This document shows, one piece after another, positions 11,957 through 41,879 of a stretch of DNA of 64,000 nucleotides. This DNA is from Dehalobacter sp. DCA (lineage in GTDB: Bacteria; Bacillota; Desulfitobacteriia; Desulfitobacteriales; Syntrophobotulaceae), in the NCBI RefSeq assembly GCF_000305775.1, contig NC_018866.1, forward strand, positions 124,001 to 188,000, in the 5' to 3' direction. Position 1 is the first letter of the stretch, and every line of letters starts with the position of its first letter. The notes under the pieces are model-generated. The model saw only the letters and a list, made by a program, of their open reading frames with translations. It did no database searches and was not told the origin of the DNA. Position numbers and translations under genes: made by a program.

Positions 11957-11970
11957 GGAGTTTGATTGAA

Positions 11971-13090: not shown

Positions 13091-13320
13091 TGCCTCAGAT
13101 GGATAATAAAGTTATTTAACCAATTTATCGTTTGAATTGCTGATGAGGGCAGGAAAGGGCTCTATTACTACAAGGACAAATATATTTAATATATTTTGAC
13201 TATAAATCGAAGGGGGGACAAAAACATGATTGTATTTATCACATAATTGTTCATGCCCCGAATACCTTTGACGAGGGTTAAACGTTATTCAGTTAGATAA
13301 TATTTAGGGGAGGTTTTCTA

Positions 13321-13614: not shown

Positions 13615-13715
13615 GCTCTCCAGAAAAAATAATAGAGAAGAGAATAGTTGCGTAATCTAAAAAAAATATTTGATGTAATTATAAGACTTAGCAAACTAAA
13701 AAATGCATTCCGTAT

Positions 13716-13746
13716 ACTCCCAGCCCATACTGGGAGTTATTTTCCT
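13716..13746 (+). terminator. Rho-independent terminator
   Basis: Stem ACTCCCAG (13716-13723) and CTGGGAGT (13730-13737) is followed by TATTTTCC. It closes the CMD gene. Confidence 0.7.
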
Positions 13747-13856
13747 TGATTACATGAGCTGAATTAGCACGGGGATCATATCATGAAAGAAGTAAAATGA
13801 TGTAAGGCGTTGAGCCGGTAATGAGAGGACTTGTAGCAGCACCTATTTAAAAAATA

Positions 13857-13905
13857 TTTTAAGGAAAGTGGCTTGCCCAAAAAGTTGGGACAGAGGGCTT
13901 AAAGC
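13857..13905 (+). repeat. Duplicated acr3-arsC junction, right copy
   Basis: Matches the end of acr3 at 13009-13061 with few changes, including GGAAAGTGGCTTGCCC and CAGAGGGCTTAAAGCATG, where the final ATG is the arsC start at 13906. It shows that acr3 and arsC were originally adjacent and that the CMD gene was inserted between them. Confidence 0.75.
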
Positions 13906-14319
13906 ATGAAGGAAAAAATTAAGATAGCATTCGTATGTGTTCATAACTCATGCCGTTCCCAGATGGCGGAAGCTATTGCAAAATTGATAGCTGCTGATAG
14001 TTTTGAGGCTTATTCCGCAGGTGTTGAGATTAAACAACTTAACCAGGAGGCAGTTGCAGTAATACATGAGCTTTATGGTGTAGATATGAACCAGAGCCAA
14101 AAATCCAAACTGATTTCTGATATTCCACCTGTTGATATAGTGGTTACTATGGGATGTAATGTTGATTGTCCTTATCTTCCTTGTAGATATAGAGAAGACT
14201 GGGGATTGGAAGATCCGACAGGGAAAGATAAAACAGAATTTATTAAAACCGCTGAATTAATAGAAAATAAGCTGAGAGACCTTAAAGATAGAATTAAAAG
14301 TGGGAAACTAAAAATATAA
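13906..14319 (+). CDS. arsC: Arsenate reductase, thioredoxin-dependent (LMW-PTP fold)
   Basis: Enzyme of 137 residues that reduces arsenate to arsenite. The P-loop CVHNSCRSQMAEA carries the nucleophilic Cys11 and Arg, and the two redox-relay cysteines lie in MGCNVDCPYLPCR, as in Staphylococcus aureus ArsC. The aspartate of the WGLEDPTGK segment is the expected general acid. The start is the ATG inside the duplicated junction; the ribosome site is weak (CAGAGGG). As it originally followed acr3 directly, it belongs functionally with the ArsR-ACR3 operon. Confidence 0.93.
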   Translation: MKEKIKIAFVCVHNSCRSQMAEAIAKLIAADSFEAYSAGVEIKQLNQEAVAVIHELYGVDMNQSQKSKLISDIPPVDIVVTMGCNVDCPYLPCRYREDWGLEDPTGKDKTEFIKTAELIENKLRDLKDRIKSGKLKI

Positions 14320-14361
14320 AATTGGAAAAGTATTTAATAAAATTTAGAGGGGGGATTCCGA

Positions 14362-15489
14362 GTGAAAAACATGTGTCGCGAAGCGGTGGAACTATTGCAA
14401 AAAGGACAAAGCTTTGTGATGGCAACTATTTTTGATAAAACCGGTTCAGTCCCACGTACCGCAGGAGCAAAAATGATAGTTCGGGCGGATGGTTCAATTG
14501 TCGGCACAATTGGGGGAGGACGTATGGAGGCAGATGCCATACATCTCGCTTTGGAGACATTGCCTTCCAAGCAAACAGTAATGCATTCCTTTGATTTATC
14601 CAGCAAGGATGTCGCTTCCACGGACATGATTTGCGGCGGAAAGGGCGAACTATTGTTAGATTTCATCGATGCTGACGATAAAAATAACCTAATGATCTAC
14701 CAGTCTGCAGCACAAATTATGGAGCGGAGGGAGAAAGCGTGGTTAATAACCGTGCTGGGTAGTAGTATTCCGGGTGTTTCTGGGATATCAAGGCAACAAT
14801 GCCTGGTAAAACCGGATAAAACTCTTATTGGCCGAGTTGATTGTGATCCATACATTTTGGAGAAGCTAATAGCCGGGCCAGCTAAGATTTCCATCCATAC
14901 CGAAGCGATTGATAATCAACGCTTTTTGGCAGAACCACTACGACCGGCGGGGACGGTTTACATTTTCGGCGCAGGCCATGTGTCACAAAGAATTGCCTCA
15001 TTAACTGAAACAGTAGGTTTTAAAACGGTAGTATTGGATGACCGTGCCGACTATGCTAACCGTGAAAGGTTTTCTAGGCCTGTGGAGATTATGGTAATTG
15101 ATTCATTTAGGAAATTTCCTTCTTTGGAGATTAACGGAGACAGTTACCTTGTTATAGTGACCAGAGGCCATCTGTATGACAGAATTGTCCTGGAGCAGGT
15201 ACTGAGGAGCGGTGCGCGGTATATTGGCATGATTGGCAGCCGAAGCAAAACAGGACAAATCTTCAAAGAAATGATGAATCAGGGATATAAAAAAGAAGAA
15301 CTTGACAGTGTTTATGCGCCGATCGGCACGAACATCAATGCTGAAACACCAGAGGAATTAGCGGTAAGTATTGTTGGCGAATTAATCAAGGTGAGGGCGG
15401 AAAGAGAAAATATCGGCCCAAAACAAAGAAGCGGTGATGGTGATGGTAGTACTTGCTGCAGAATACTAGTCCCGGATGCTGGAGTTTGA
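14362..15489 (+). CDS. XdhC/CoxI-family maturation protein, long form
   Basis: Protein of 375 residues with both XdhC domains: an N-terminal half with GSVPRTAGAKMIV and TIGGGRMEADAI, and a C-terminal Rossmann half with VYIFGAGHVSQRIAS and YIGMIGSRSK. It is about 100 residues longer than the copy at 2.9 kb because of the insert between the halves and a Cys-containing tail (STCCRIL). GTG start after a GGGGGG ribosome site. Expected role: delivery of sulfurated Mo-cofactor to a molybdoenzyme. It lies between arsC and arsD. A selenium-dependent molybdenum hydroxylase system would be an alternative, but no hydroxylase is seen. Confidence 0.85.
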   Translation: MKNMCREAVELLQKGQSFVMATIFDKTGSVPRTAGAKMIVRADGSIVGTIGGGRMEADAIHLALETLPSKQTVMHSFDLSSKDVASTDMICGGKGELLLDFIDADDKNNLMIYQSAAQIMERREKAWLITVLGSSIPGVSGISRQQCLVKPDKTLIGRVDCDPYILEKLIAGPAKISIHTEAIDNQRFLAEPLRPAGTVYIFGAGHVSQRIASLTETVGFKTVVLDDRADYANRERFSRPVEIMVIDSFRKFPSLEINGDSYLVIVTRGHLYDRIVLEQVLRSGARYIGMIGSRSKTGQIFKEMMNQGYKKEELDSVYAPIGTNINAETPEELAVSIVGELIKVRAERENIGPKQRSGDGDGSTCCRILVPDAGV

Positions 15490-15593
15490 ACCATAAATAC
15501 CGTCAAGACATCTAACGACTCTTAAAAAGTGTGGGATGTTTGAAACTTAACTGAGATATAATCTAAATAATAAAACGATTGGAGGGTCTGGTT

Positions 15594-15989
15594 ATGAAAG
15601 GAATGCAAATCTATGAACCGGCTATGTGCTGCCCTACTGGGCTTTGCGGAGTAAGCGTTGATCCTGAACTTCTTAGAGTTTCTACTGTCCTAGACTCATT
15701 AAAGAAGAACGGCATTGAGGTGCAAAGGTTTAATCTCTCAAGTTCGCCGCAGGAGTTTGTCAACAACAAATCAGTCAATAAATTTATAACTGAAAAAGGT
15801 GTTGATGAGCTGCCAGTTACTGTTTTAGATGATGAAATCGTGATAACAGGCAGATATCCTACAAATGAAGAATTTGCAAAACTGTTAAATGTTCCAAGCA
15901 GTTTTTTGGGAGAACAACCAAAGACTTTAAAATTAAAAGTAAAAAGCAAATCAGGAGATTGCGGGTGCTCTGGTGATAACTGTTGCTGA
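15594..15989 (+). CDS. arsD: ArsD arsenite metallochaperone
   Basis: Metallochaperone of 131 residues that hands As(III) to ArsA. The N-terminal EPAMCCPTGLCG provides the Cys12, Cys13 and Cys18 triad of the family, and the thioredoxin-like fold follows. The C-terminus adds a second cluster (DCGCSGDNCC). The ATG at 15594 follows GGAGGG. It lies 69 bases before arsA, in the usual arsD-arsA order. Confidence 0.93.
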   Translation: MKGMQIYEPAMCCPTGLCGVSVDPELLRVSTVLDSLKKNGIEVQRFNLSSSPQEFVNNKSVNKFITEKGVDELPVTVLDDEIVITGRYPTNEEFAKLLNVPSSFLGEQPKTLKLKVKSKSGDCGCSGDNCC

Positions 15990-16058
15990 TTTCAAGCTAC
16001 TGTCTGATTGATAAGGGGTGGTAGCAGTAGAATCTGTATCAATAGAAAGGCGCAGCAT

Positions 16059-17801
16059 ATGAATAATTTTAACCCCAAAAAAATTGCACTTACAAAATAT
16101 TTATTTTATACAGGGAAGGGTGGCGTTGGGAAAACCTCCACTGCCTGTGCCACTGCAGTCACCCTTGCCGACAGCGGGAAAAAAGTGCTGCTCATCAGCA
16201 CTGATCCTGCCTCAAATTTGCAGGATGTGTTTAATGCCGACTTGAATAATAAAGGTGTTATAATTAATGAGGTGCCAAACCTTACTGTTGTAAACCTTGA
16301 TCCGATACAGGCAGCAGCCGAATACAGAGAGAGCGTAATTGCACCTTATCGTGGGCTGCTTCCCGAAGCGGCGCTGAGCAACATGGAGGAGCAATTATCC
16401 GGTTCCTGTACGGTCGAGATTGCTGCGTTTAATGAGTTTTCTCATTTCATCACCGATGAAAAGGCCCAAAAAGAATATGACTATATCCTATTTGATACTG
16501 CGCCGACAGGTCATACCCTCAGAATGCTGCAATTGCCGTCAGCCTGGAGCAATTTTATCAGCGAAAACACCCATGGTGCATCTTGCCTGGGACAGCTGTC
16601 CGGTTTAGAAAGCAAGAAGGGAGTATACAAAAGGGCTGTGAACACCTTAGCCGATAGCAAGTTGACAACGTTAATCCTTGTTTCCCGCCCGGAAGAAGCT
16701 CCTCTCAAGGAAGCAGAAAGAGCATCTAAGGAGCTTGCCGACATCGGTATAAACAATCAGACAATGGTGATCAACGGTGTACTGACTTCTTACGATGACA
16801 GCATCTCCGAAAGTTTGTATCAGAAACAGCAAAAGGCACTTACAGAAATGCCCCAGGGCTTAAAGGGGATTACCGCCTACATGATACCGCTCAGAGCTTA
16901 CAATATTACAGGTGTGGACAATGTGCGTGCTTTGCTTGCCAAAGATAACTGCATTGTAAGTGATGGAAAAATAACAGCCCGGACAATTCTGAAGTTGAAA
17001 GACGTGATTGACGATCTGTATCTTAGCAACAAAAAAGTGATTTTCACCATGGGCAAAGGCGGTGTGGGAAAGACCACGATTGCGGCAGCTATAGCGTTGG
17101 GATTATCGGCCAAAGGTAAAAAAGTGCATCTAACGACAACTGATCCTGCAGCGCATTTGAAATTCGTATTGGCTGAAAGCAGCGGAATCAGCATGAGTCG
17201 CATTGACGAACACGCCGAGCTCGAAAAATACAAAGAAGAAGTGCTTTCCAGAGCGAGAGAGACCCTGTCCGCTGGTGATATTGCTTATGTTGAGGAGGAT
17301 CTGCGATCCCCTTGCACCCAGGAAATTGCTGTTTTCCGTGCTTTCGCAGAGATTGTAGACAAGGCGGATGAGGAAGTTGTGGTCATCGATACTGCACCGA
17401 CCGGGCATACGCTTCTTTTGCTCGACTCGACCCAAAGCTATAACAATGAAATCAAGCGTTCGCAAGGCGATATTCCGGAATCTGCCAAAAAATTGCTGCC
17501 ACGGCTGCGAAATCCTGATGAAACAGAAGTCATTATTGTAACGCTGGCTGAAGCTACACCTGTCTATGAAGCAATGCGTCTGGAAGAAGATTTGCAGCGC
17601 GCCAGTATTGCGGCAAAATGGTGGGTCATCAATTCCTCAATGTATCAAACAGGTACGACAAACCGATTGTTGTCCGCAAAGGCAAGCAACGAGGTTGAAT
17701 GGATTAACAAGGTTGATTCCCATACAAATGGTAAGTTTGCTGTTATTCCCTGGAGTCCCGATGAAATAAAAGGCGATAAGCTAAAAAAGTTGATAATATA
17801 A
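16059..17801 (+). CDS. arsA: ArsA arsenite-stimulated ATPase
   Basis: Soluble ATPase of 580 residues made of two homologous halves. Each has a deviant Walker A (GKGGVGKTSTA near residue 20, GKGGVGKTTIA near 345) and a DTAPTGHTL signature. Metalloid-binding cysteines are visible in SGSCTVEIAAF and RSPCTQEIAVF. It normally energises ArsB; with ACR3 in this window it would drive ACR3 or receive As(III) from ArsD for export. The ATG at 16059 is chosen because it starts the conserved N-terminus, though its ribosome site (GAAAGG) is modest; an upstream reading from 16008 lacks support. Confidence 0.93.
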   Translation: MNNFNPKKIALTKYLFYTGKGGVGKTSTACATAVTLADSGKKVLLISTDPASNLQDVFNADLNNKGVIINEVPNLTVVNLDPIQAAAEYRESVIAPYRGLLPEAALSNMEEQLSGSCTVEIAAFNEFSHFITDEKAQKEYDYILFDTAPTGHTLRMLQLPSAWSNFISENTHGASCLGQLSGLESKKGVYKRAVNTLADSKLTTLILVSRPEEAPLKEAERASKELADIGINNQTMVINGVLTSYDDSISESLYQKQQKALTEMPQGLKGITAYMIPLRAYNITGVDNVRALLAKDNCIVSDGKITARTILKLKDVIDDLYLSNKKVIFTMGKGGVGKTTIAAAIALGLSAKGKKVHLTTTDPAAHLKFVLAESSGISMSRIDEHAELEKYKEEVLSRARETLSAGDIAYVEEDLRSPCTQEIAVFRAFAEIVDKADEEVVVIDTAPTGHTLLLLDSTQSYNNEIKRSQGDIPESAKKLLPRLRNPDETEVIIVTLAEATPVYEAMRLEEDLQRASIAAKWWVINSSMYQTGTTNRLLSAKASNEVEWINKVDSHTNGKFAVIPWSPDEIKGDKLKKLII

Positions 17802-30101: not shown

Positions 30102-30185
30102 GATTCTTGTGTGTTATGAATTTTTACCAAGTGAGTTAAGCCGTACTTAGTATTATATAAACAATTTTAAAAATGGGAAAACATA

Positions 30186-30228
30186 TTGACTAATATCGAT
30201 ATATTGTACATAATATAACATATCGACA
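30186..30228 (+). promoter_or_regulatory. Operon A promoter and ArsR operator
   Basis: The -35 box TTGACT (30186-30191) and -10 box CATAAT (30209-30214) have a 17-base spacer. A palindrome ATATCGATAT (30193-30202) lies within the spacer, and a second ATATCGA half-site follows the -10. This is the likely operator for the ArsR encoded directly downstream. Confidence 0.65.
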
Positions 30229-30251
30229 AAAATAGATATGAGGTGGAAGAA

Positions 30252-30554
30252 TTGGAGAGCAGGTATGAGAAAAATGCAAAGGTGTTTAAAGCACTCTGTG
30301 ATCCAAACCGATTAATGATCATTGAGATGCTGCGAAGTGGAGAGAAATGTGCCTGTAAAATATTGGAGGAACTTAATATCGGGCAATCAACCTTGTCACA
30401 TCATATGAAAATACTATGTGAATCAGGGCTTGTTGGTAGTCATCGTGTCGGAAAATGGACGCACTATTCACTAAATAAAGAGGGCTGTGAAACAGCAAAA
30501 AATCTATTAACTGAAATTACAACAGTAAAAGATAAGTGTGAGCTTAGCTGTTAA
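30252..30554 (+). CDS. arsR: ArsR-family repressor of lipoate operon A
   Basis: Repressor of 100 residues. The helix-3 site reads EKCACKI (CxC retained), the recognition helix is GQSTLSHHMKIL and the wing RVGKWTHYSL. Additional Cys occur at MKILCESG and in the tail KCELSC, giving potential three-coordinate As(III) sites. The TTG at 30252 is preferred because GAGGTGG lies at proper distance; the GTG at 30243 overlaps it. It is first in an operon of lipoate and DGC genes, with 15 bases to the dihydrolipoamide dehydrogenase gene. This is the main evidence that the operon responds to metalloid. Confidence 0.85.
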   Translation: MESRYEKNAKVFKALCDPNRLMIIEMLRSGEKCACKILEELNIGQSTLSHHMKILCESGLVGSHRVGKWTHYSLNKEGCETAKNLLTEITTVKDKCELSC

Positions 30555-30569: not shown

Positions 30570-31964
30570 GTGGTGAAGAAGATTGACACGACCCTAGCTG
30601 TCTTAGGTGGCGGTCCTGCCGGTTATGTCGCAGCTATACGGGCTGCCCAGCTCGGGGCAGATGTTGTTCTTATTGAAAATAAAGAGCTTGGTGGGGTATG
30701 CATGAATAGAGGATGTATTCCTACAAAAGCCCTGCTCAGGACTTCAGAGATTGTCTCAATCTTAAAGAAATCCAAAGAATTTGGAATTGAAGACAAAGGT
30801 ATTAACATAAAATGGGATGTCAGCAATGAGCGAAAAAACCGTGTGGTTAAGAGTTTGGGTTTAGGTTTGGACCAATTGTTGCCCAAGTCAGGAGTCACTG
30901 TGCTCAAAGGCAGAGGTACAATCCAAAATCCAAAGATGATTTCTGTATGGACACAGGAAGAAGAAATAGAAGTTCATTGCGCCAAGATGATTATTACCAC
31001 AGGGGCTAGACCATTAGTTCCTGATATAGAAAATATTCACAGCGAGGGTGTTTTAACAAGTAACGAGGCACTGCATTTGGAAAAGGTTCCCGAAAGTATG
31101 GTTATTATTGGGGCAGGCGTTATCGGCTTGGAATTTGCCACAATGTTTAGCGCTGTGGGCAGCAAGGTAACCATTCTTGAAATGATGGATCGAATACTTC
31201 CTATTGAAGATACTGAGATAGCCACTGAATTATTGAAAATTATGAAAAGACAAGGAATTTCCTTTAAGTTAGCTGCCACGGTTCAAAGAATTGAACAAAC
31301 AGAGGATGGGCTTGAGGTACACTATATCGACAAGGACAAGAATTTAACCCTCAGCTGTGAAAAGATTTTGGTGGCTGTAGGAAGAAAACTCAATTCAGAC
31401 AGTGAAGACTTTAAAAAACTAGGGCTGAACATTAATAATGGTGCCTTAGTAGTGAACGAAAACATGGAAACCAATATCGAAGGTGTTTATGCCGCAGGAG
31501 ATGTAATAGGAGGAAATCTTTTGGCCCATCTTGCCTTTATGGAGGGGAAGACAGCCGCTGAAAATGCTTTGGGAATTGCTGGTAGAGTAAATTACAACGC
31601 GGTTCCGGCTTGTATTTATACCAATCCGGAAGTTGCTTCCGTAGGGATGACTGAGGAAGAAGCATCAAGTGCAGGAATAAAAGTGAAAGTTGGCAGATTT
31701 CAATTCAGAAACAATGGACGCGCCTTATGTTTAGGTGAACGAGATGGTTTTGTCAAAATTGTTGTCGAGATGGACAATACTATTATTGGCGGACAGATAT
31801 TGGGAGCGAATGCTTCCGAAATGATTTCAGAAATAACCCTGGCTATTACTTTAAAAGCAAAGGCTGACACCATAGCCGACATGATCCATCCGCACCCTAG
31901 TTTGAATGAAGCTGTGTGGGAAGCTTGTGCAGATGCTGTAGGCAGGGCAATTCATAAAATATAA
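30570..31964 (+). CDS. lpdA: Dihydrolipoamide dehydrogenase (E3-type)
   Basis: FAD disulfide reductase of 464 residues. The FAD motif GGGPAGYVAAI, redox disulfide GGVCMNRGCIPTKAL (Cys44-Cys49), NAD motif GAGVIGLEFA and C-terminal His-Glu pair HPHPSLNEA are all intact. It should oxidise or reduce lipoyl groups with NAD(H). No E1 or E2 genes of a 2-oxoacid dehydrogenase and no glycine decarboxylase lie nearby, so its partners are presumably the GcvH-like and lipoyl proteins of this region. Keeping these lipoyl groups as dithiols would let them bind As(III). Co-transcription with arsR is clear. Confidence 0.92.
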   Translation: MVKKIDTTLAVLGGGPAGYVAAIRAAQLGADVVLIENKELGGVCMNRGCIPTKALLRTSEIVSILKKSKEFGIEDKGINIKWDVSNERKNRVVKSLGLGLDQLLPKSGVTVLKGRGTIQNPKMISVWTQEEEIEVHCAKMIITTGARPLVPDIENIHSEGVLTSNEALHLEKVPESMVIIGAGVIGLEFATMFSAVGSKVTILEMMDRILPIEDTEIATELLKIMKRQGISFKLAATVQRIEQTEDGLEVHYIDKDKNLTLSCEKILVAVGRKLNSDSEDFKKLGLNINNGALVVNENMETNIEGVYAAGDVIGGNLLAHLAFMEGKTAAENALGIAGRVNYNAVPACIYTNPEVASVGMTEEEASSAGIKVKVGRFQFRNNGRALCLGERDGFVKIVVEMDNTIIGGQILGANASEMISEITLAITLKAKADTIADMIHPHPSLNEAVWEACADAVGRAIHKI

Positions 31965-32366: not shown

Positions 32367-32660
32367 ATGAGTGAATCAACATTTATGGGCGTTTCCCGAG
32401 AAAAAATTGATTGGAGCCCAAGAATAGACTTCACGAAGTGCAACTATTGTATGGAATGTGTAGAATTTTGCCCTCATAAGGTATTTGAGGTGAATGAGGA
32501 GGCAGAACAAAAATTCAGTGTCAAGAACCCAAACAATTGTGTTGTGTTCTGCCGTGCTTGCGGAAAAACCTGTGGCTTAGATGCGATTGAGTTTCCCAAC
32601 AAGACAGAAACCACCAAGCGGATCAAGGAAATCAGACAGGAGGCAGTAAGTGATGAGTAA
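32367..32660 (+). CDS. 4Fe-4S ferredoxin-like protein
   Basis: Protein of 97 residues. A first cluster motif is CNYCMECVEFCP, and a second set of Cys is NNCVVFCRACGKTCGLD, consistent with two [4Fe-4S] clusters or one plus a structural site. The start lies two bases after the HdrA-like gene, and the end overlaps the next gene by eight bases, which implies translational coupling. It probably carries electrons between LpdA, the HdrA-like protein and the DGC-lipoyl fusion. Confidence 0.8.
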   Translation: MSESTFMGVSREKIDWSPRIDFTKCNYCMECVEFCPHKVFEVNEEAEQKFSVKNPNNCVVFCRACGKTCGLDAIEFPNKTETTKRIKEIRQEAVSDE

Positions 32661-33528
32661 AGCCTATGCGGTTTTACCCTGCAATGGTCTCGATAAATGT
32701 GCAGGGTGCATCACCAAAGAGGTTGCGGTAAAACTGACTCAAAAATCGGACAGCAAGATTATATGTCCAGTATTCTATCGCGTTTCGGATGCCCGATATA
32801 ATAAATTAGCGGAAGAAAATCCTGTTATTGTTATCGATGGCTGTGCCACAAGATGTGCCAGCAAACTGGCAGCGGAAAAAGGAATTAAGGTTTCTAAGAA
32901 AATCAATATTGCGGACGAAGCAAAGACAAACAACATCGTCCTCGGGGAAAATTTGGTATTGGGTGAAAACGAATTGCGGTTAGCTGGAATTGTAACAGAT
33001 AGCCTGTTAAAAGAGGAGTATAAGCTGCTAACAAAGAACGAGCAGAATAAGGCTGAAGATTCATCGGCTTTTCCTGAAAGCTTCGAGTATGAAAGCTATA
33101 CCAAGGATAAGTTTGTATTTCGATTGCCTAAAGAAGAAGGGTTTTACTTCAATGAAAATGACTGCTGGGCCTATGTGATTGGTAATAAAGCACGAGTCGG
33201 CGTAACTGATTTTGTCCAAAAAAGCTTATCGGACATTATGTTTTTTACTCCGCCTGCTCTGGGCAGTCAGATTGAACAGTTTGAAGAAGTCGGTACAATT
33301 GAATCAGGCAAAGCAGTATTTGAAATTGTCTGTCCGGTAAGCGGAACTGTCACGGCGGTGAATTATAAGCTGTTAGAAGCACCTGAACTTATCAATCAAA
33401 ATCCTTATGAAGAGGGCTGGATTGCAGAACTTGAATTAGCAGACTTTGAGAGTGATAAGGAACTTCTTCATACCTTTGATACTTACTTTAAAATATTAAA
33501 GCGAAAGGTAGATGAATTCCATGTCTAA
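32653..33528 (+). CDS. DGC domain fused to GcvH-type lipoyl domain
   Basis: Fusion protein of 291 residues. Residues 1-115 are a DGC (PF08859) putative metal-binding domain: LPCNGLDKCAGC, a Cys at KIICPVFYR and VIDGCATRCASK. Residues about 150-270 are a glycine-cleavage H-protein (GcvH) domain: VGVTDFVQKSLSDI, lipoyl-lysine motif TIESGKAVFEI (Lys about 220), CPVSGTVTAVN and NPYEEGWIAEL. All core GcvH features are kept, so it should be lipoylated. Attachment of a lipoyl arm to a Cys-rich binding domain, in an ArsR operon with lipoate ligase and LpdA, suggests the dihydrolipoyl arm handles As(III). I know of no described protein of this layout. Confidence 0.85.
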   Translation: MSKAYAVLPCNGLDKCAGCITKEVAVKLTQKSDSKIICPVFYRVSDARYNKLAEENPVIVIDGCATRCASKLAAEKGIKVSKKINIADEAKTNNIVLGENLVLGENELRLAGIVTDSLLKEEYKLLTKNEQNKAEDSSAFPESFEYESYTKDKFVFRLPKEEGFYFNENDCWAYVIGNKARVGVTDFVQKSLSDIMFFTPPALGSQIEQFEEVGTIESGKAVFEIVCPVSGTVTAVNYKLLEAPELINQNPYEEGWIAELELADFESDKELLHTFDTYFKILKRKVDEFHV

Positions 33529-33931
33529 AATAAAAATAATACCCTGCAGTGGTATTGGAAAAGCCTTTGGTCTTATGACAAGAGAAGCTGTATTTCAAGT
33601 GACCAATAAACTTAACCCCAAAGAAGCTGAAACTGCCTGTCTTGCTCATATTATTACCGGAGATGCCGAGGGTAGGGATAAAGTAGCAGGTCAAAGATGT
33701 ATCACAGTCGACGGGTGTCCTAAACTTTGTGCTGCTAAAAGCGTGGAATTTGAGGGCGGGATTGTCAAACAACAATTTAGGGTTATTGATGAGATGAAGA
33801 ACCATAAGGGTGTTAATCCAGGAACGGGTACGGCACTTTCTGAAGACGGTTGGATCATTGTAGATGAACTGGCTGAAAAAATCTCTGCGAAAGTTACAGA
33901 ATTGGTGGAGGAGGGAAAAAACAATGCCTGA
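33521..33931 (+). CDS. DGC-domain putative metal-binding protein
   Basis: Protein of 136 residues of the DGC family (PF08859). Conserved Cys are in IIPCSGIGKAFG, ETACLAHI and TVDGCPKLCAAKS (the D-G-C motif). The family is called zinc binding, but its true ligand is not established. It overlaps the fusion gene before it and the DGC gene after it, by eight bases each, so all are translated together. It is nearly duplicated at 39.4 kb. In this setting the Cys sites may hold As(III) or another soft metalloid. The ATG at 33521 matches the paralogue. Confidence 0.8.
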   Translation: MSKIKIIPCSGIGKAFGLMTREAVFQVTNKLNPKEAETACLAHIITGDAEGRDKVAGQRCITVDGCPKLCAAKSVEFEGGIVKQQFRVIDEMKNHKGVNPGTGTALSEDGWIIVDELAEKISAKVTELVEEGKNNA

Positions 33932-34328
33932 CGTACAAATTGGGGTGCTGTCTTGCAGCGGCGAAGAATGTCTTGGCGGTACAATCTCCAGACTTGCTAC
34001 GCGCAAAGTGATGGAAAAGCTGCGGATAGGCCGGACAACTTCACTTTGCCTGCCGCTTTATATAGCTGGAGGTGAGGAGGAACGCAATTTTGCCAAAGCG
34101 TATCCTGTAATTTCTGTAGATGGCTGTGACAAAAGCTGCGCCAAAAAGGCGACAGAAAGGTTTAGCGGTGATGTGAGTGAAGCCTTGGTTATTTCCGATA
34201 TTTTAGGGGAAGAGGCTGCCTTGGATAAGACTGTATCGGCGAGGGATTTAACCGAGGAGCATTATACAATGGTGGATAAAATAGCGGAAGAAATATGCAA
34301 AAAAGTTGATAAGATAGTGGCTGAATAA
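33924..34328 (+). CDS. DGC-domain protein, second type
   Basis: Protein of 134 residues. It has VLSCSGEECLGGTISRLATRK, TSLCLPLYIAGGEEERNFA and SVDGCDKSCAKKA. Two Cys pairs plus a lone Cys match the DGC family, but it forms a distinct subgroup shared with the gene at 39.8 kb. The ATG at 33924 follows GAGGAGGGA and overlaps the previous stop. The invariant order of the two DGC subgroups in both operons suggests that they form a heterodimer. Ligand unknown. Confidence 0.8.
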   Translation: MPDVQIGVLSCSGEECLGGTISRLATRKVMEKLRIGRTTSLCLPLYIAGGEEERNFAKAYPVISVDGCDKSCAKKATERFSGDVSEALVISDILGEEAALDKTVSARDLTEEHYTMVDKIAEEICKKVDKIVAE

Positions 34329-34378: not shown

Positions 34379-34654
34379 ATGAATATCAAAATTGAACCAA
34401 CAGTGTTTGCGGAGCTAAAGGATGCTATGACAAAGGAAGGAAAAACAGCGGCAAGATTTTATGCTTCAGGATGTGGCTGCAAAGGACCGGTGTTTGATAT
34501 TTCTTTTGATCATGTGAAAGAAGACGATGTGGTTGAAGAGTTCGAAGGCACTAAATTTGTTTATGAAAAAGATTTTGCAGCGGCGTTAAAGGCTCCGGAA
34601 ATTATTAAGACCGAAAATGGTTTTGCTGTAAAACGCTCCGCTTGCGGTTGTTAA
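34379..34654 (+). CDS. IscA/HesB-like small Cys protein
   Basis: Protein of 91 residues related to A-type Fe-S carriers (HesB/IscA fold). The central ASGCGCKGPVFDISF and the C-terminal SACGC carry the cysteines. It lacks the third conserved Cys position of classical IscA in its usual spacing, and instead has CGC at both sites, like the CC-type HesB-like proteins (some of which are selenoproteins). It could carry an Fe-S cluster or an As-thiolate. Good GGGAGGA site; last gene before a stem-loop. Confidence 0.7.
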   Translation: MNIKIEPTVFAELKDAMTKEGKTAARFYASGCGCKGPVFDISFDHVKEDDVVEEFEGTKFVYEKDFAAALKAPEIIKTENGFAVKRSACGC

Positions 34655-34748: not shown

Positions 34749-35738
34749 ATGATTAACGTTATTAACAATTCAACCAATCCTTTTATAAATTTAGCCTTGG
34801 AAGAATACTTTTTAAAATACAAAGCTTTAAAAGATGATGTCCTGATACTATGGCAAAATGAGCCGGTTGTCGTAGTCGGAAAGAATCAGAACACCTATGA
34901 AGAACTCAATGCAGAGTATATAGAGAACAAAAACATTAAAGTCGTAAGAAGATTATCCGGAGGCGGCGCAGTATACCATGACTTGGGCAATTTGAATTTC
35001 ACTATCATAAAAAACAATGCAGAGGTATACAGAAACGATTTTTCATTTTTTGCTATGCCCGTGATAAAGTGTTTGGAAATCTATGATGTAACAGCATCGT
35101 TCAGCGGCAGAAATGATATTTTGATTGATGGCAAAAAGTTTTCTGGAAATGCGCAATATTTTTATAAAGATAAGGTTCTTCATCATGGCACTCTTTTGTT
35201 TTCCAGTGATTTAACAGTATTAGCCAAAGCATTAAAAGTAAGACAAGATAAGTTTGAGTCCAAAGGAATTAAATCTATGCAAAGCAGGGTTGCCAATATT
35301 GGTGATTATATTGATAAAGATATTACCTTAGCGGAGTTCCGCCAGACGCTTATTAGGAGCATGTTTGACTATGAACAAGAGCCGGTCAGGCATTATGATT
35401 TGACAGCTGAGGATATAACGGCAATTACCGAATTAGAAAAAACAAAATACAGTACATGGGACTGGAACTATGGACAATCGCCAAAGTCGAACTATAAGAA
35501 GGAAATGAGATTTACTTCAGGAATGGTATCGCTGGAAATGAACATAGAGGACGGTTTGATTACCCAATTAAAATTATACGGAGATTTCTTTGAGGAAAAT
35601 CCAAAAGAAATATTAGAGAATTTGTTTATTGGTGAAAAATACGATCTTGTTGTAATCAGAAACATAATAGAAAAGGCGGATGTTTCGCGATATATACATA
35701 AGCTGAGCAATGATGAATTTATAGAATTATTTTTCTAG
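34749..35738 (+). CDS. lplA: Lipoate-protein ligase A
   Basis: Ligase of 329 residues. Signatures RRLSGGGAVYHDLGNLNF and the lipoyl-AMP lysine motif DGKKFSGNAQY are present, and the full C-terminal accessory domain is present. It activates lipoate with ATP and transfers it to lipoyl domains. No LipA/LipB is present, so the lipoylation depends on scavenged lipoate or on other genes. It is placed after the DGC-GcvH fusion gene, whose product is the obvious acceptor. A second LplA with separate specificity is at 40.9 kb. The start has a GAGAGG site. Confidence 0.92.
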   Translation: MINVINNSTNPFINLALEEYFLKYKALKDDVLILWQNEPVVVVGKNQNTYEELNAEYIENKNIKVVRRLSGGGAVYHDLGNLNFTIIKNNAEVYRNDFSFFAMPVIKCLEIYDVTASFSGRNDILIDGKKFSGNAQYFYKDKVLHHGTLLFSSDLTVLAKALKVRQDKFESKGIKSMQSRVANIGDYIDKDITLAEFRQTLIRSMFDYEQEPVRHYDLTAEDITAITELEKTKYSTWDWNYGQSPKSNYKKEMRFTSGMVSLEMNIEDGLITQLKLYGDFFEENPKEILENLFIGEKYDLVVIRNIIEKADVSRYIHKLSNDEFIELFF

Positions 35739-35883: not shown

Positions 35884-36453
35884 ATGGAAAACAGCCAAAA
35901 AGAAAGCATGTTCAAAAAACATGCATTAAAAATTATCATTCCAATCCTCATTATTCTAGCTATTGGTGCGATATGGTTCATTAAAAATGATGAACAAAAG
36001 CCAATGGCTGATAATATAGTAGGCTCTGACATCAGTACGGCAGAATCAGCAGACTTTGCACTTCATGTTACAGAGAAACTAGACCTTGAGAAGCTTAAAT
36101 CCTACGGACTGCCCATTATGATAGACTTTGGTGCTGATTCCTGTATCCCGTGTAAGGAAATGGCCCCTGTTTTGGCGAAACTAAACGAGGAACTGCAGGG
36201 AAAAGCAATCATTAAATTTGTCGATGTGTGGAAATATCAAGAACTGGCAGAAGGATATCCAATTAGTGTGATCCCTACACAGGTATTTTTTGATAAGGAC
36301 GGTAAACCATATACTCCATCTGACCCCAAAGCCTCTCAAATGAAGATGTACTCTTTAAAGGATACGAACGAGCATGTATTTACGACTCATGAAGGCGGTA
36401 TGACAGAGGAAACGATTCGTGCTGCACTGAAGGAAATGGGGTTAAAGGAATGA
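35884..36453 (+). CDS. Membrane-anchored thioredoxin-like protein
   Basis: Protein of 189 residues with one N-terminal transmembrane helix (residues about 14-33) followed by a thioredoxin domain on the outer side: DFGADSCIPCKEM (CxxC) and cis-Pro ISVIPTQVFF. It overlaps the CcdA gene by four bases (ATGA), so the two work together: CcdA brings electrons from cytosolic thioredoxin to this extracytoplasmic domain. Possible roles are reduction of extracytoplasmic thiols or cytochrome c maturation. Location in the arsenic-lipoate operon makes extracellular thiol reduction more likely. Confidence 0.85.
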   Translation: MENSQKESMFKKHALKIIIPILIILAIGAIWFIKNDEQKPMADNIVGSDISTAESADFALHVTEKLDLEKLKSYGLPIMIDFGADSCIPCKEMAPVLAKLNEELQGKAIIKFVDVWKYQELAEGYPISVIPTQVFFDKDGKPYTPSDPKASQMKMYSLKDTNEHVFTTHEGGMTEETIRAALKEMGLKE

Positions 36454-37142
36454 TAAATCTGTGGCTGGAAACATTGTCAACACTCATTTCTGAAAGTTTT
36501 TGGCTTGCGCCGATACTGGCGTTGCTTGCGGGAGTATTAACCTCTATCACTCCTTGTGCACTGACAAGTGTTCCTCTTGTGATAGGATATGTTGGCGGTA
36601 CAGGGAATAATGATCCTAAAAAAGCCTTCAGATTATCACTTGCATTTGCCCTTGGAATGGCAGTTACTTTTACAACCCTCGGAACAGCCGCTTCATTGCT
36701 AGGGAAACTTATTGGAACATCAAGTCCGTGGTGGTACATTGCACTGGGTGTTTTAATGGTGTTGATGGCACTCCAAACTTGGGAAGTGTATAATTTTATT
36801 CCCTCTACATTTCTCACAAGCAAAACAACAAAAAAAGGATACATAGGAGCATTCGTTACAGGAATATTGGGTGGGGTGTTTTCATCACCTTGTGCAACTC
36901 CTGTATTAGTTGTTTTATTGGGTATTGTAGCTCGGAGTGGAAATGTAGCATGGGGAGTGCTACTCCTGCTCTTATACTCAGTTGGCCACAGTGTGCTGGT
37001 ATTGGCAGCAGGAACATCTGTGGGCTTGGTGAAAAAAGTGACTTCCAGCGGAAGATATGGCATCTTCAGTAAAGTATTAAAGTATTTTATGGGTGGGGTC
37101 ATTTTACTGATTGCATTTTATATGTTTTATTTAGCGTTTTAG
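36450..37142 (+). CDS. ccdA: CcdA/DsbD-family transmembrane electron carrier
   Basis: Membrane protein of 230 residues with six helices. The two redox cysteines are in the conserved TPCALTSVPLVIGYVGG and SSPCATPVLVVLLG segments. It moves reducing equivalents from cytoplasmic thioredoxin across the membrane. Coupled to the membrane thioredoxin gene before it. Confidence 0.9.
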   Translation: MINLWLETLSTLISESFWLAPILALLAGVLTSITPCALTSVPLVIGYVGGTGNNDPKKAFRLSLAFALGMAVTFTTLGTAASLLGKLIGTSSPWWYIALGVLMVLMALQTWEVYNFIPSTFLTSKTTKKGYIGAFVTGILGGVFSSPCATPVLVVLLGIVARSGNVAWGVLLLLLYSVGHSVLVLAAGTSVGLVKKVTSSGRYGIFSKVLKYFMGGVILLIAFYMFYLAF

Positions 37143-37170
37143 CTATAAAAAAACAAGGAGGCTGTTGATT

Positions 37171-38316
37171 ATGGGCATCTACTTGGATAATGCCGCAACA
37201 TCATTTCCTAAACCTAAAACTGTTGTCCAATCTATGTATGATTTTATGATAGAAAATGGTTGCACATCCGGTCGTGGCGCTTATGAAAAAGCAATTGAAG
37301 CCGACATGCTCGTTTATCAAACCCGCAAAGCAATTGCTAATTTTTTTAATTTTAACGACCCCAAAAAAGTTATCTTTACTTCCAATATTACAGAATCATT
37401 GAATCTGGCTATAAAAGGTATTCTGAAAAAAGGAGACCATGTCATTGTAAGCAGCGTGGAGCATAATGCAGTATGGCGGTGTATTAAGACTGTTGAAAGA
37501 GATTTAGAAATTAGTATTTCTAAAATACCTTGTTCGGAGGAAGGTTATACAAATGCCAATGATATTGAAAAACTAATAAAAAAAAATACCTCTTTGGTAG
37601 TCATAAATCATGCTTCAAATGTTCTGGGTACGATTCAGCCTATCGAGGAGATTGGCCGAAGATGCAGAATACATAACATCCCATTTTTGGTTGATGTCGC
37701 TCAAACAGCAGGGGCTCACTCTATTGATATAGTCAAGCAAAATATTGATTTGCTGGCCTTTACCGGGCACAAAAGTCTCCTTGGCCCTATGGGTATCGGA
37801 GGTCTTATTATAAACTGGGAAGGAGACATATACCCGCTAAAGTCTGGTGGAACCGGCGGTGATTCTGCTTATGAATATCAGCCCGATTATTATCCGAACA
37901 GATTTGAAACTGGAACTTTAAATGTTCCAGGAATAATTGGTCTGCACGAAGGTCTAAAATTTATTCAAAAAGAGGGTCTAAATCATATCGTTAAAAAGGA
38001 AATTGAACTTGTGAATTATGCTTTGATGAGATTAAAAGAAGTTGACGATATAAAAATTTACGGTCCTCAAGACAGCAGTAAAACAGTTGGGGTCATCCCA
38101 TTTAATTTAAAGAATAAATCCTGTAATGAAGTAGCCTATGAATTAGACCAAAACTTCAGCATCATGATCCGCTCCGGGCTACATTGTGCTCCGAGTGCAC
38201 ACCAAATTATTGGTACCGAAAAATCAGGCACGTGCAGAGTAGGGATAGGCTATTTTAATGAAAAACATGAACTTGATCATTTGGTTGAAGCACTAAAATC
38301 AATAAGTAGCAATTAA
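37171..38316 (+). CDS. Cysteine desulfurase-family aminotransferase (class V)
   Basis: PLP enzyme of 381 residues, TIGR01977-type. Key residues are the Schiff-base Lys in FTGHKSLLGPMG, the His/Asp of VDVAQTAGAHS and the active Cys in RSGLHCAPSAHQ. It is expected to release sulfur (or selenium) from cysteine for Fe-S, lipoyl or Mo-cofactor sulfuration. It follows the CcdA gene with an AAGGAGG site and precedes an Fe-S gene. The true sulfur acceptor is unknown. The ATG at 37171 is used rather than the TTG at 37165. Confidence 0.85.
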   Translation: MGIYLDNAATSFPKPKTVVQSMYDFMIENGCTSGRGAYEKAIEADMLVYQTRKAIANFFNFNDPKKVIFTSNITESLNLAIKGILKKGDHVIVSSVEHNAVWRCIKTVERDLEISISKIPCSEEGYTNANDIEKLIKKNTSLVVINHASNVLGTIQPIEEIGRRCRIHNIPFLVDVAQTAGAHSIDIVKQNIDLLAFTGHKSLLGPMGIGGLIINWEGDIYPLKSGGTGGDSAYEYQPDYYPNRFETGTLNVPGIIGLHEGLKFIQKEGLNHIVKKEIELVNYALMRLKEVDDIKIYGPQDSSKTVGVIPFNLKNKSCNEVAYELDQNFSIMIRSGLHCAPSAHQIIGTEKSGTCRVGIGYFNEKHELDHLVEALKSISSN

Positions 38317-38340
38317 CATATTATTCGAGGGGTGTTAAAA

Positions 38341-38859
38341 ATGTACCTAGAGAAAATACAAATTACATTTATCGAACCGTGTACAGCCGATACTGAAAAA
38401 ATGAGGTTTAAAGCAAAATTTTCGAGAGATATTGCAGATATTTTACCCTACTTAAACCGTCGGATAAAAACTGCGCAATATAACGACCAAGCAAAAAACC
38501 TTACATTTAATCAAGGAATTAAAATGATTACAATCTACAGGGATTCTTTGGCTGTTGCAAAAGTTATCAATGAGTCCGAGGCTTATGAAATGAGCGATAC
38601 TATAAAAGATCTAATCAACGAAACACATGATACGAAAGATTTGCTTGTCCCCATGTATGAAACGCGCAAAAAACCATCAGTCTTGGATATATATAGATAT
38701 TTACCAAAAACCAATTGCAAAATGTGCGGGGAGCTATCCTGTATGGCATTTGCAGCCAAACTAATATCTTCCTCTAAAAATATAGAATTATGTACACCTC
38801 TTTCCCTTCAGGATAAAAAAGAAAACTTTAATGAAATTGTTGAACTTTTAGATTTTTAA
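38341..38859 (+). CDS. Protein with C-terminal (Fe-S) domain
   Basis: Protein of 172 residues. The first 110 residues match no family I recognise. The C-terminus has the four-Cys Fe-S domain (PF04060) as LPKTNCKMCGELSCMAFAAK with a last Cys at ELCTPL, as found in corrinoid/Fe-S protein subunits and RnfB. It is last in operon A. It likely supplies an Fe-S cluster or electrons for the redox chain of the operon. The ATG at 38341 follows GAGGGG. Confidence 0.75.
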   Translation: MYLEKIQITFIEPCTADTEKMRFKAKFSRDIADILPYLNRRIKTAQYNDQAKNLTFNQGIKMITIYRDSLAVAKVINESEAYEMSDTIKDLINETHDTKDLLVPMYETRKKPSVLDIYRYLPKTNCKMCGELSCMAFAAKLISSSKNIELCTPLSLQDKKENFNEIVELLDF

Positions 38860-39002: not shown

Positions 39003-39350
39003 ATGTTTGAAAGCCGATTTAAAGCCCTGGGAGAACCAACTCGCTTAAATATTATTAAACTATTATCTTTTAAAGATTTATGCGTCTGCGAGCTTGAAGA
39101 AATTATGCAAATTAGTCAGCCGCGCATATCCCAGCACCTTAAGGTTTTGAAACAATCCGGTTTGGTCAAGGAACGAAAGGAAGGGCAGCGTCGAGTATGC
39201 AGTTTAAATACTGCCTTGCTGAACAATACGATGGAAGAGTTTATGGATTATATTGCCAAACCACTTCAGGAAATTCCGGAATTAAACGAAGCGTATGAGC
39301 GATTAGTGGATCTTGATGGCGAATCCTGTACAAGAAAACTGAAGCAATAA
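39003..39350 (+). CDS. arsR: ArsR-family repressor of lipoate operon B
   Basis: Repressor of 115 residues. It has the As(III) motif KDLCVCELEE, recognition helix SQPRISQHLKVL and wing KEGQRRVCSL (extra Cys). It is placed ahead of the two DGC genes in the same way as the repressor at 30.3 kb is placed ahead of the LpdA operon. Start ATG after AAGGAG. Confidence 0.9.
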   Translation: MFESRFKALGEPTRLNIIKLLSFKDLCVCELEEIMQISQPRISQHLKVLKQSGLVKERKEGQRRVCSLNTALLNNTMEEFMDYIAKPLQEIPELNEAYERLVDLDGESCTRKLKQ

Positions 39351-39427
39351 GACTTCCAAGTGTTTTGGAAAAAAACTTAATTTTAATCAATACTAAGAAG
39401 TTAAGAGAAGAAAGGTAGATGAATTTA

Positions 39428-39832
39428 ATGTCTGAAAAAGTAAAAGTAGTTCCCTGCAGCGGGATAGGCAAGGTTCACGGTCTTTTAGCCAGAGAGATTG
39501 CCTTGAAGATCGTAAGCGAGCTTTGCGTGGCAGAAACGGAATCCCCCTGTTTAGCCTACATTGTAACCGAAGACCCAGAAATCAAAGAGAAAATTGCCCA
39601 GGGAAAATGTGTAACCATCGATGGCTGTCCCAAAATGTGTGCGGCTAAAAGCGTAGCGCATGCAGGAGGTAGTGTCGCAGAAGAGATTCGGATTCTGGAG
39701 ATACTGAAAGACTACCGGGGAATTCAACCGGGGAATGCTACTGCTTTAAACGATGATGGTTGGAAAATTGTGGACGAGGCGGCACTCAAAGTTGCGGACC
39801 GAGTTCAAAAAGTATATGAAAGCGAGGTATGA
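39428..39832 (+). CDS. DGC-domain protein, operon B
   Basis: Protein of 134 residues, paralogue of the one at 33.5 kb, with VVPCSGIGKVHGL, ESPCLAYIV and TIDGCPKMCAAKS. The first 40 bases of the two genes, including the ribosome site, resemble each other, evidence of duplication. The ATG at 39428 is chosen by analogy. It overlaps the next gene by four bases. Confidence 0.8.
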   Translation: MSEKVKVVPCSGIGKVHGLLAREIALKIVSELCVAETESPCLAYIVTEDPEIKEKIAQGKCVTIDGCPKMCAAKSVAHAGGSVAEEIRILEILKDYRGIQPGNATALNDDGWKIVDEAALKVADRVQKVYESEV

Positions 39833-40248
39833 AAAAAATGGAACCAGTTAAAGTAGGAGTAATTTCTTGCAGTGGGGAGGATTGTCTGGGCGGTACGATC
39901 TCGCGTTTAGCTACGAGAAAAATCCTGGAACGCATCCGGTTAGGCGAATCGGTTACCATTTGCCTGCCGCTGTTTATAGCCGGAGGGGAAGAAGAAAGAG
40001 TCTTTGCTACACTCTTTCCTACCATTACAGTCGACGGTTGCGGTAAATGGTGCGCCAAGAGAGCGACGGAAGAATTGAGCGGAAAAGTCAGTGATACGGT
40101 TCAAGTTTCAGATATTATTGGTCAAGAAGCAGCGGAGAGTCCTGTTCTCTCCACCCGGAATCTATCCAAGGAACATTTGGAAATGGTGGATAAAGTAGCG
40201 GAGCAAATCAGGGTGAAGCTCGATCGCCTGGTTGATGAGAATAAATAA
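39829..40248 (+). CDS. DGC-domain protein, second type, operon B
   Basis: Protein of 139 residues, paralogue of the one at 33.9 kb: ISCSGEDCLGGTISRLATRK, TICLPLFIAGGEEERVFA and TVDGCGKWCAKRA. The same pair order as in operon A. It is followed at 66 bases by the first lipoyl-domain gene, so the DGC pair may be the loading partner for these small lipoyl proteins. Confidence 0.8.
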   Translation: MKKMEPVKVGVISCSGEDCLGGTISRLATRKILERIRLGESVTICLPLFIAGGEEERVFATLFPTITVDGCGKWCAKRATEELSGKVSDTVQVSDIIGQEAAESPVLSTRNLSKEHLEMVDKVAEQIRVKLDRLVDENK

Positions 40249-40314: not shown

Positions 40315-40578
40315 ATGTTAGAAATAAAACTTAACAAGAATTTATGTGGAATCTTTAAAGTTGGCAGAGTGTTTGTCAAAGAAGGGGATTCGGTCCATTG
40401 TGGTGAGGGACTGTTTACGATAGAGGCTAATAAAATAAACACAGCAATTTATGCTAATTTTGAAGGTGAAATCATCAGCATGAACTTAGCAGGTGGGAAT
40501 GTAGTTAAGCCGGACAGTATTATCTTAACAGTGGATGGACAGGTGGTAAAAGAATCTAAGACAATCATAGCAAATTAA
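40315..40578 (+). CDS. Stand-alone lipoyl-domain protein 1
   Basis: Protein of 87 residues consisting only of a lipoyl/biotinyl-type beta-barrel domain. The lipoyl-lysine candidate is Lys40 in TIEANKINTAI, with acidic Glu at -3, and the hairpin AYANFEGEI follows. It lacks E2 catalytic or peripheral-binding domains. It has one Cys in the lead strand (LCGIFKVG) and another at HCGEG, absent from most lipoyl domains. Lys40 should be lipoylated by the LplA at 40.9 kb. With LpdA and DGC partners it may carry dihydrolipoyl-bound As(III). Biotinylation is possible but less likely. Confidence 0.8.
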   Translation: MLEIKLNKNLCGIFKVGRVFVKEGDSVHCGEGLFTIEANKINTAIYANFEGEIISMNLAGGNVVKPDSIILTVDGQVVKESKTIIAN

Positions 40579-40615
40579 GAAAACTTTAATAAACATATTC
40601 AGGAGGTAATTGGAA

Positions 40616-40885
40616 ATGTTGGAAATAAAAGTAAAAGATTATATAGCCTCAGTCTGCAATGTGGGTAGCCTGTTTGTTAATGAAGGAGACTTCGTCAAAT
40701 GTGGAGACAATTTATTTAATGTGGAGTCCCAAAAAATTAGTACGGTAATTAAGGCTAATTTTGAAGGAAAGGTCTTAGACATCAACCTGACTAGAGGGGA
40801 ATACTTGGAGCCAGGAGTGGTTGTACTCACAGTTGATGGTAAAGTAATTGAAGAATCCGAGCATCTTAGTGTTGAGCAAAAATAA
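40616..40885 (+). CDS. Stand-alone lipoyl-domain protein 2
   Basis: Protein of 89 residues, a tandem paralogue of the lipoyl protein at 40.3 kb. The lipoyl-lysine candidate is again residue 40, in NVESQKISTVI, followed by IKANFEGKVLDI. It keeps the Cys residues at SVCNVG and VKCGDN. The ATG at 40616, nine bases after AGGAGG, is chosen. The next gene (lplA) starts two bases after its stop, a direct sign that it is a ligase substrate. Two non-identical carriers suggest separate acceptor and donor roles or different target proteins. Confidence 0.8.
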   Translation: MLEIKVKDYIASVCNVGSLFVNEGDFVKCGDNLFNVESQKISTVIKANFEGKVLDINLTRGEYLEPGVVVLTVDGKVIEESEHLSVEQK

Positions 40886-40886
40886 T

Positions 40887-41879
40887 ATGCCAAAGATAAA
40901 ATTGAAAGTTATGGAACCGAAGGGTAACGACCCCTGGCTAAACCTGGCAACAGAAGAATATTTACTGAATTCTAAGACCTCTGAAGAAATCATCTTATTG
41001 TTATGGCAAAACGATAAGACCATTGTCATAGGCGCCAATCAGAATCCCTGGAAAGAATGCAACATTAGGCTTTTTGAGGAAGATGGCGGCAGGCTGGCCC
41101 GCAGGATTTCAGGCGGTGGCGCGGTTTATCATGATTTGGGGAACCTGAATTTTAGCTTATTAATAGATCAGGCTAATTATGATTTTGACAAACAGGTCAA
41201 AATCATCACGGATGCCATAGCTGATCATCAGATTATAGCTGAATTTAAGGGCAGAAATGATATTCTGGCCAATGGTAAAAAATTTTCCGGAAATGCCTTT
41301 TATCATAATGCAAATAAAGTCTTGCATCATGGAACCCTATTAGTGGATTGTGATTTTACTGAAATGACGAAATATTTGCAGGTCTCGGAGAAAAAAATCC
41401 AATCTAAAGGAATTGAATCTATCAGAGCTAGGGTAATTAATCTCAAAGATTTGAATTCCAGTATTACAATTAATGCCTTAAAAGAGAGTATAAAGAAGCA
41501 ATTTGCGCTGAACTATGGGGTGGACTATGTCCAAATCACTGACGCTGAGCTCGATATGCACAAACTGGACTCTATTTATAGAAAACATTGTTCGTGGGAT
41601 TGGAGATTTGGAGATACCCCCGAATGTCAGATATCATTTGCCAACCGCTTTCATTGGGGAGAACTAAGTATTAATTTAAATGTTGAAAAAGGTTTGATTA
41701 AAAATATTCAGATATATTCAGATGCAATGGATGTCCGGTTGGTAGAAAACATAAAAAGTCTTTTCACTGGATTGCCGTTTGATGCTGACGCAATACAAAA
41801 GAAGTATAACGATTACGAGGAGAAACAAGAGTACAAGGATGTCATCAATTGGTTTGTTGAAGAAGTTCATCATTATTAA
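40887..41879 (+). CDS. lplA: Lipoate-protein ligase A, second copy
   Basis: Ligase of 330 residues with LARRISGGGAVYHDLGNLNF and GKKFSGNAFYHN. It begins two bases after the second lipoyl gene, suggesting translational coupling and a dedicated substrate. It differs clearly from the ligase at 34.7 kb, so the two probably have separate acceptors (GcvH-like fusion versus small lipoyl domains). Confidence 0.92.
   Translation: MPKIKLKVMEPKGNDPWLNLATEEYLLNSKTSEEIILLLWQNDKTIVIGANQNPWKECNIRLFEEDGGRLARRISGGGAVYHDLGNLNFSLLIDQANYDFDKQVKIITDAIADHQIIAEFKGRNDILANGKKFSGNAFYHNANKVLHHGTLLVDCDFTEMTKYLQVSEKKIQSKGIESIRARVINLKDLNSSITINALKESIKKQFALNYGVDYVQITDAELDMHKLDSIYRKHCSWDWRFGDTPECQISFANRFHWGELSINLNVEKGLIKNIQIYSDAMDVRLVENIKSLFTGLPFDADAIQKKYNDYEEKQEYKDVINWFVEEVHHY

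Follow-up and report, generated by a model that had tools for sequence, protein, structure and literature searches.

A DGC–lipoyl fusion protein in a conserved, arsenic-associated gene module hints at a so far undescribed role for lipoic acid

Lipoic acid serves central carbon metabolism as a cofactor and, as has been known since 2018, sulfur oxidation too; it is also a target of arsenic. A locus of Dehalobacter sp. DCA raises the question of what a lipoyl carrier does when it shares one polypeptide with a cysteine-rich DGC domain. Initial annotation of the 64,000-nucleotide stretch of DNA analysed here (“the window”; NC_018866.1, positions 124,001 to 188,000) had proposed that such a protein exists, that its layout is undescribed and that its arm might move a metalloid or a reducing equivalent between the two sites.

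The proposed fusion was borne out at the level of the gene and of its domains. The reading frame is intact from an ATG at 32653 to a stop at 33526–33528, and profile searches assigned both halves to the families named for them, with PF08859 (DGC) covering residues 6–91 (E 2.6e-20; 72.9 bits against a gathering cut-off of 27) and PF01597 (GCV_H) covering residues 165–283 (E 2.7e-31, far above its gathering cut-off). The lipoyl motif, VGTIESGKAVFEI, contains the candidate lipoyl lysine K220, which is kept in 30 of 30 aligned fused proteins, and a lysine is also found in every fused H domain of our tree. The DGC half qualifies as a family member both by its profile score and by its conserved cysteine set (C10, C38, C64 in the DGC motif itself, and C68), three of which are invariant and one near-invariant, the sole gap being a row truncated at the N-terminus. 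A further pair that the initial annotation had read as a cysteine motif (CAGC; C16 and C19) is not conserved, and relatives carry DKPAGS, DKFAGS or DKSLG. Near the start of the H domain, C171 is nearly invariant.

An AlphaFold2 model from a 30-row alignment (mean pLDDT 90, pTM 0.56) predicted two confidently folded domains on a loose, low-confidence linker, with residues 126–135 below pLDDT 50. The concern that a rigid scaffold might hold the two sites apart is not supported, because this linker is of low confidence and its length differs among relatives in the alignment. The C-terminal half matched the pea lipoamide H-protein 1htp (Z 22.9, rmsd 1.0 Å over 131 residues), which together with the invariant K220 gives it both the H-protein fold and the lipoyl lysine. 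The third DGC protein of the operon, folded alone, is predicted to adopt an alpha/beta, Rossmann/flavodoxin-like arrangement (pLDDT 93.6). Searches for a solved DGC relative returned none by sequence and only middling Rossmann/flavodoxin-like PDB matches by fold, and we found no characterised member of the family.

Since the H-protein fold is that of glycine cleavage, the simplest possibility is an ordinary glycine cleavage H-protein, or a lipoyl-relay GcvH, that has acquired a DGC domain. Besides the fold, a GcvH profile score slightly short of its cut-off speaks for it (NF002270, 111.5 vs 117 bits). The fusion passes neither this curated cut-off nor that of TIGR00527 (98.3 vs 115.85). We searched the host genome, a single contig estimated as 99.97% complete, for the remainder of such a system. 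The fusion contains its one GCV_H domain; lipA (lipoyl synthase) gave no match in this genome and GcvP gave sub-cut-off matches only, leaving the fusion no GcvP over cut-off to work with. The same holds more widely, as 6 of 20 other carrier genomes have no GcvP and 11 of 20 no lipA over cut-off. In the tree, fused H domains form a group separate from 16 clostridial GcvH proteins (support 100/100, branch 1.83), and the clostridial lysine context ES-K-xxSD is replaced in them, mostly by ES(G/S)K(A/S)VFE. Judged by genome content and tree, which rule out a glycine cleavage role, the fusion is not part of glycine cleavage in this genome, because the genome has no other GcvH, no GcvP over cut-off and no lipoyl synthase; we regard an H-protein with an added domain as extremely improbable.

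The same search bears on where lipoate could be used at all. Both LplA genes of the host lie in the window cluster, and all five of its DGC domains lie within the window. Elsewhere on the chromosome, biotin/lipoyl-type domains occur in frames of 156, 1152 and 307 residues, and below cut-off in one of 422; the 307-residue frame is membrane-fusion-like by sequence, and the sizes of the 156- and 1152-residue frames would fit a biotin carrier and pyruvate carboxylase. Candidate lipoate users were found in the window cluster alone, as the genome search gave no others.

The fusion does not stand by itself (Table 1). In the window the module genes are closely spaced, and 8-nt overlaps join ferredoxin to fusion, fusion to DGC protein 2 and DGC protein 2 to DGC protein 3. 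We found it at no fewer than 45 other loci, spread over Clostridia, Bacteroidales, Chloroflexota and Asgard archaea; scans yielded 31 loci in genome contigs and, among the host and 198 relatives, 15 genomes (the host included) with strong full-length matches. Carriers include Clostridium ljungdahlii, C. frigoris, C. tepidiprofundi, Caloramator, Sinanaerobacter, Eubacterium callanderi (two copies), Acetobacterium, Bacteroidales MAGs, a Dehalococcoidales MAG, and Heimdall-, Jord- and Lokiarchaeota. In nearly all loci the genes run HdrA-N-like Fe-S protein, ferredoxin, DGC-GcvH, DGC, DGC, and the four partners are present in 44, 45, 45 and 45 of the 46 test loci. A chance fusion or annotation artefact was rejected, because the fusion is conserved in several bacterial phyla and in archaea. 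The HdrA-N-like profile matches HdrA N-domains in the PDB (7bkb, E 1.2e-4), and the protein retains C12, C14, C18, C49 and C72 invariantly, with 60–89% identity across loci including those of Asgard archaea. The four cysteines of DGC protein 2 are invariant across 31 homologues and those of DGC protein 3 in all homologues aligned. Lpd lies near the module in 21 of 46 loci vs 1 of 20 control stretches and LplA in 12 of 46 vs 0 of 20, with the controls drawn from four genomes only. On these comparisons of gene order and sequence, the conserved module is well supported.

Table 1 Features of the operon, the adjoining second module and the arsenic genes of the island (positions in the window)
Feature	Position	Strand	Evidence and remarks
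Island arsenic genes	11962..17801	+	ACR3 11962, ArsC-type LMW phosphatase 13906, ArsD 15579, ArsA 16008
Imperfect inverted repeats over the operon promoter region, candidate ArsR operator	30182..30240	.	27-nt arms, 70% complementary, 5 nt apart
ArsR-family repressor at the head of the operon, with CxC motif (EKCACKILEEL)	30243..30554	+	PF01022 E 1e-15
Dihydrolipoyl dehydrogenase (Lpd)	30570..31964	+	TIGR01350 520 bits, cut-off 408.8
HdrA N-domain-like Fe-S protein, 126 aa	31984..32364	+	NCBIfam HdrA E 5e-5
Ferredoxin	32367..32660	+	PF13237/PF00037; two conserved Cys4 sets
DGC-GcvH fusion	32653..33528	+	One uninterrupted ORF, 291 residues
Fusion layout	residues 1-120; ~121-145; ~146-291		DGC domain; linker, flexible; H-protein lipoyl domain
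DGC protein 2	33521..33931	+	PF08859 E 2.2e-14; starts 8 nt inside fusion gene end
DGC protein 3	33924..34328	+	PF08859 E 4.4e-19; 8-nt overlap with DGC protein 2 gene
HesB/IscA-like small protein	34379..34654	+	Weak NCBIfam matches E 8e-7, below cut-off
Lipoate-protein ligase LplA 1	34749..35738	+	TIGR00545 422 bits, cut-off 280
Membrane-anchored thioredoxin and CcdA/DsbD_TM	35884..37142	+	PF00085, PF02683
Cysteine-desulfurase-like class V aminotransferase and PF04060 Fe-S protein	37165..38859	+	
Second ArsR (DLCVCELEEIM)	39003..39350	+	
DGC proteins 4 and 5, second module	39419..40248	+	PF08859 E 8e-15 and 2.7e-16
Two small lipoyl-type domain proteins (EANKIN, ESQKIS; at 40315, 40610)	40315..40885	+	PF00364 E 6.7e-9, 2.4e-8
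Lipoate-protein ligase LplA 2	40848..41879	+	PF21948 E 3.5e-63

As to what the module may respond to, its neighbourhood points to arsenic, which gives the metalloid suggestion of the initial annotation a more definite form. The operon is headed, as an ars operon would be, by an ArsR with an As(III)-type CxC motif (KCACKILEEL, at 30243). Also encoded in the window are ACR3, ArsA and ArsD, an ArsC-type protein, a number of ArsP_1 permeases and many LCVC-bearing ArsRs; the arsenic genes of the island are matched by TIGR00832 (439.6 bits), TIGR04291 (835.4 bits), PF06953 and PF01451. Across the locus set, ACR3, ArsA, ArsC or ArsD lies within about 10 kb in 20 of 46 loci vs 0 of 20 control stretches (Fisher p 1.4e-4) and ArsR-like genes in 33 of 46 vs 0 of 20 (p 1e-8), p values that are optimistic because loci of related species, which are not independent, were treated as if they were. 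A CxC motif, mostly LCVC or KCVC, is present in 53 of 65 ArsR-like ORFs. In more than half of the 46 loci no classic gene for arsenic efflux or reduction lies within 10 kb, the Asgard loci have just ArsR and the core genes, and the Bacteroidales ArsRs next to the module are mostly without the CxC motif. In one genome (G178) a split version of the operon reads ArsR, TauE, a small Cys-rich protein, ACR3, lipoyl H-protein, DGC, DGC, OsmC, Lpd. A phylum-wide search with the HdrA-N-like profile also recovered a second, lower-scoring HdrA-N/ferredoxin lineage that is without DGC-GcvH; a CVC-type ArsR is nearby in 7 of the 7 loci examined (L113–L119), and most also carry ACR3, ArsC, ArsA/D or ArsP. 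This second, independent line ties the electron-transfer pair to arsenic in the absence of the lipoyl protein, and the arsenic link of the module as a whole is well supported by gene context.

The arsenic genes might instead be general neighbours in a metal island, the actual target being a different soft metal or metalloid (Sb, Hg, Cu, Cd). ArsP_1 permeases, which are common in the loci and are kin of SaoE and of the SO_0444 Cu/Zn efflux family, speak for this, but ACR3, ArsA and ArsD are specific for arsenic/antimony and the CVC motif of the ArsRs is of the As/Sb type, and we consider a different target highly unlikely.

Taken with the exclusion from glycine cleavage, this context leads us to propose, with about an even chance of being right, that the fusion serves an arsenic-inducible redox module as its dedicated lipoyl carrier and is not a glycine cleavage protein. 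As(III) would release ArsR and switch the operon on, and LplA would lipoylate K220 with salvaged lipoate. From its flexible linker the dithiol arm could then visit Cys4 sites at which arsenic may be held, those of the DGC domain in the same chain and of both partner DGC proteins. There it might deliver electrons, for instance reducing pentavalent or thiolated arsenic, or it might bind As(III) in a cyclic dithiol adduct and take it towards ACR3 or ArsP for efflux; its recharging would fall to Lpd with NADH, to the ferredoxin/HdrA-N-like Fe-S pair, or to both. In this scheme we infer the lipoylation, the place of arsenic as ligand or substrate, the direction of electron flow and the physical complex. 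Dithiols are both reductants of pentavalent arsenic and tight binders of As(III), vicinal ones such as dihydrolipoate included, so redox relay and carriage are each chemically reasonable; we favour the relay, given that no part of the module is kept more strictly than the Fe-S pair. More tentatively still, and with rather less than even confidence, we suggest a widely shared anaerobic arsenic-processing machine in which a lipoylated arm would swing between DGC arsenic sites and the ferredoxin/HdrA-N electron pair, as the host's only use of lipoic acid found.

It is this Fe-S pair that sets the redox proposal apart from simple sequestration, in which dihydrolipoyl and the DGC Cys4 sites would take up As(III) and pass it to ACR3/ArsA like an enlarged ArsD, with no redox turnover and with Lpd merely keeping the dithiol reduced. 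As(III) binding by vicinal dithiols would serve a buffer of this kind well, as would four cysteines per DGC and three DGC per operon, and in G178 the lipoyl gene adjoins ACR3. Lipoic acid is itself named as an arsenite ligand in one paper (PMC6205960). The strictly kept ferredoxin and HdrA-N-like protein would nevertheless be left unexplained, and the same pair occurs in ArsR loci that have neither lipoyl nor DGC proteins, so that a pure chaperone seems to us unlikely.

The main rival to the arsenic relay is a sulfur carrier, and it comes from the nearest described system, the LbpA lipoate-binding proteins of sHdr sulfur oxidation, which are served by lipoate ligases of their own (PMC6067878). 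As proposed there, the arm would move sulfane sulfur, here between the DGC cysteines and the HdrA-N-like protein; the arsenic genes would be neighbours because arsenic and thioarsenic or polysulfide stress occur together. The sHdr-LbpA systems (PMC6067878) are built from parts that recur here: an HdrA domain, a GcvH-like lipoyl carrier outside carbon metabolism, a dedicated LplA-type ligase gene nearby and, sometimes, Lpd. In addition, a rhodanese occurs in 5 Bacteroidales-type loci, and 10 of the 46 have a cysteine-desulfurase-like gene. Unlike the LbpA system, however, our locus has a DGC domain on the carrier, arsenic-type regulation and neighbours and, among the window genes scanned, an HdrA N-domain-like protein with no HdrB or HdrC seen; its hosts are anaerobic heterotrophs and Asgard archaea. 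LbpA has conserved cysteines near both termini, whereas the conserved columns of the fusion alignment include no C-terminal cysteine in the H domain. The As(III)-type CVC motif on most regulators and the split operon adjoining ACR3 likewise argue against sulfur as the cargo, which we hold to be improbable, to about the same degree as sequestration.

The arsenic relay that we favour overlaps with other known systems in part only. It has the regulator type and the neighbouring genes of classical ars operons (ArsR, ACR3, ArsC, ArsA, ArsD), but its core genes are lipoyl, DGC, HdrA-N and ferredoxin; with GcvH the fusion shares fold and lipoyl-lysine site, but it is DGC-fused, groups apart in the tree and lives in several hosts without GcvP. 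In Mycobacterium tuberculosis, a peroxidase chain runs from Lpd through the lipoyl protein DlaT to AhpD. There, as in our proposal, a lipoyl arm reduced by Lpd serves a thiol partner, and the island too encodes small AhpD-like (CMD) proteins; here, by contrast, we identified no peroxiredoxin partner and the context is arsenic. Our literature search on DGC with lipoyl, GcvH or arsenic gave no description of the layout, in agreement with the initial annotation; searches on lipoate ligase with arsenic and on Sao/Tso selenoprotein systems likewise gave nothing on the fusion protein, two ars papers searched by term do not mention lipoamide dehydrogenase, and a paper on arsenate growth of Fusibacter does not mention the gene set. 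Our results suggest an undescribed use of lipoic acid in arsenic handling. If true, this would be a third role for lipoate, in a genome in which no other lipoate user was found, a first testable function for the DGC family and an undescribed anaerobic arsenic-processing route in Clostridia, Bacteroidales and Asgard archaea; to our knowledge, it would also be the first lipoyl-dependent metalloid system.

Several other features of the region were recorded. Small lipoyl-type proteins stand in tandem between DGC and LplA genes, two in the window and three in a genome of the same genus (L086, 11539–12425), with motifs that vary (EANK, ESQK, ESRK, EIKK). Three small AhpD-like proteins (CMD, PF02627) are encoded in the island (13321–13614, 17971–18189, 45232–45555), AhpD being elsewhere a known partner of lipoyl arms. 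Three radical SAM/SPASM paralogues in the arsenic region (5659–6966, 10297–11577, 42225–43613) all score below cut-off against TIGR04317, the tungsten-cofactor oxidoreductase maturase that they resemble. A Cys-rich DUF2703 protein follows each of two sigma-70-like sigma factor genes (4036–5133, 22274–23423), and two XdhC/CoxI family proteins of the molybdenum cofactor accessory type lie in the island (2898–3722, 14362–15489). Upstream of the operon, a Na+/H+ exchanger (PF00999; 28939–30101) is split over two overlapping frames covering profile positions 2–86 and 86–367, which looks like a frameshift or pseudogene. No plasmid record spans 80% of the query, the matches listed being ordinary partial GcvH matches, and the window has no tRNA genes. 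A DDE transposase (45742–47511) and a phage-type integrase (51724–53013) lie directly downstream of the arsenic region, and the arsenic island may be mobile. The ArsP_1 permease at 20903–21931 is related to SaoE, from a predicted selenoprotein-linked metal system.
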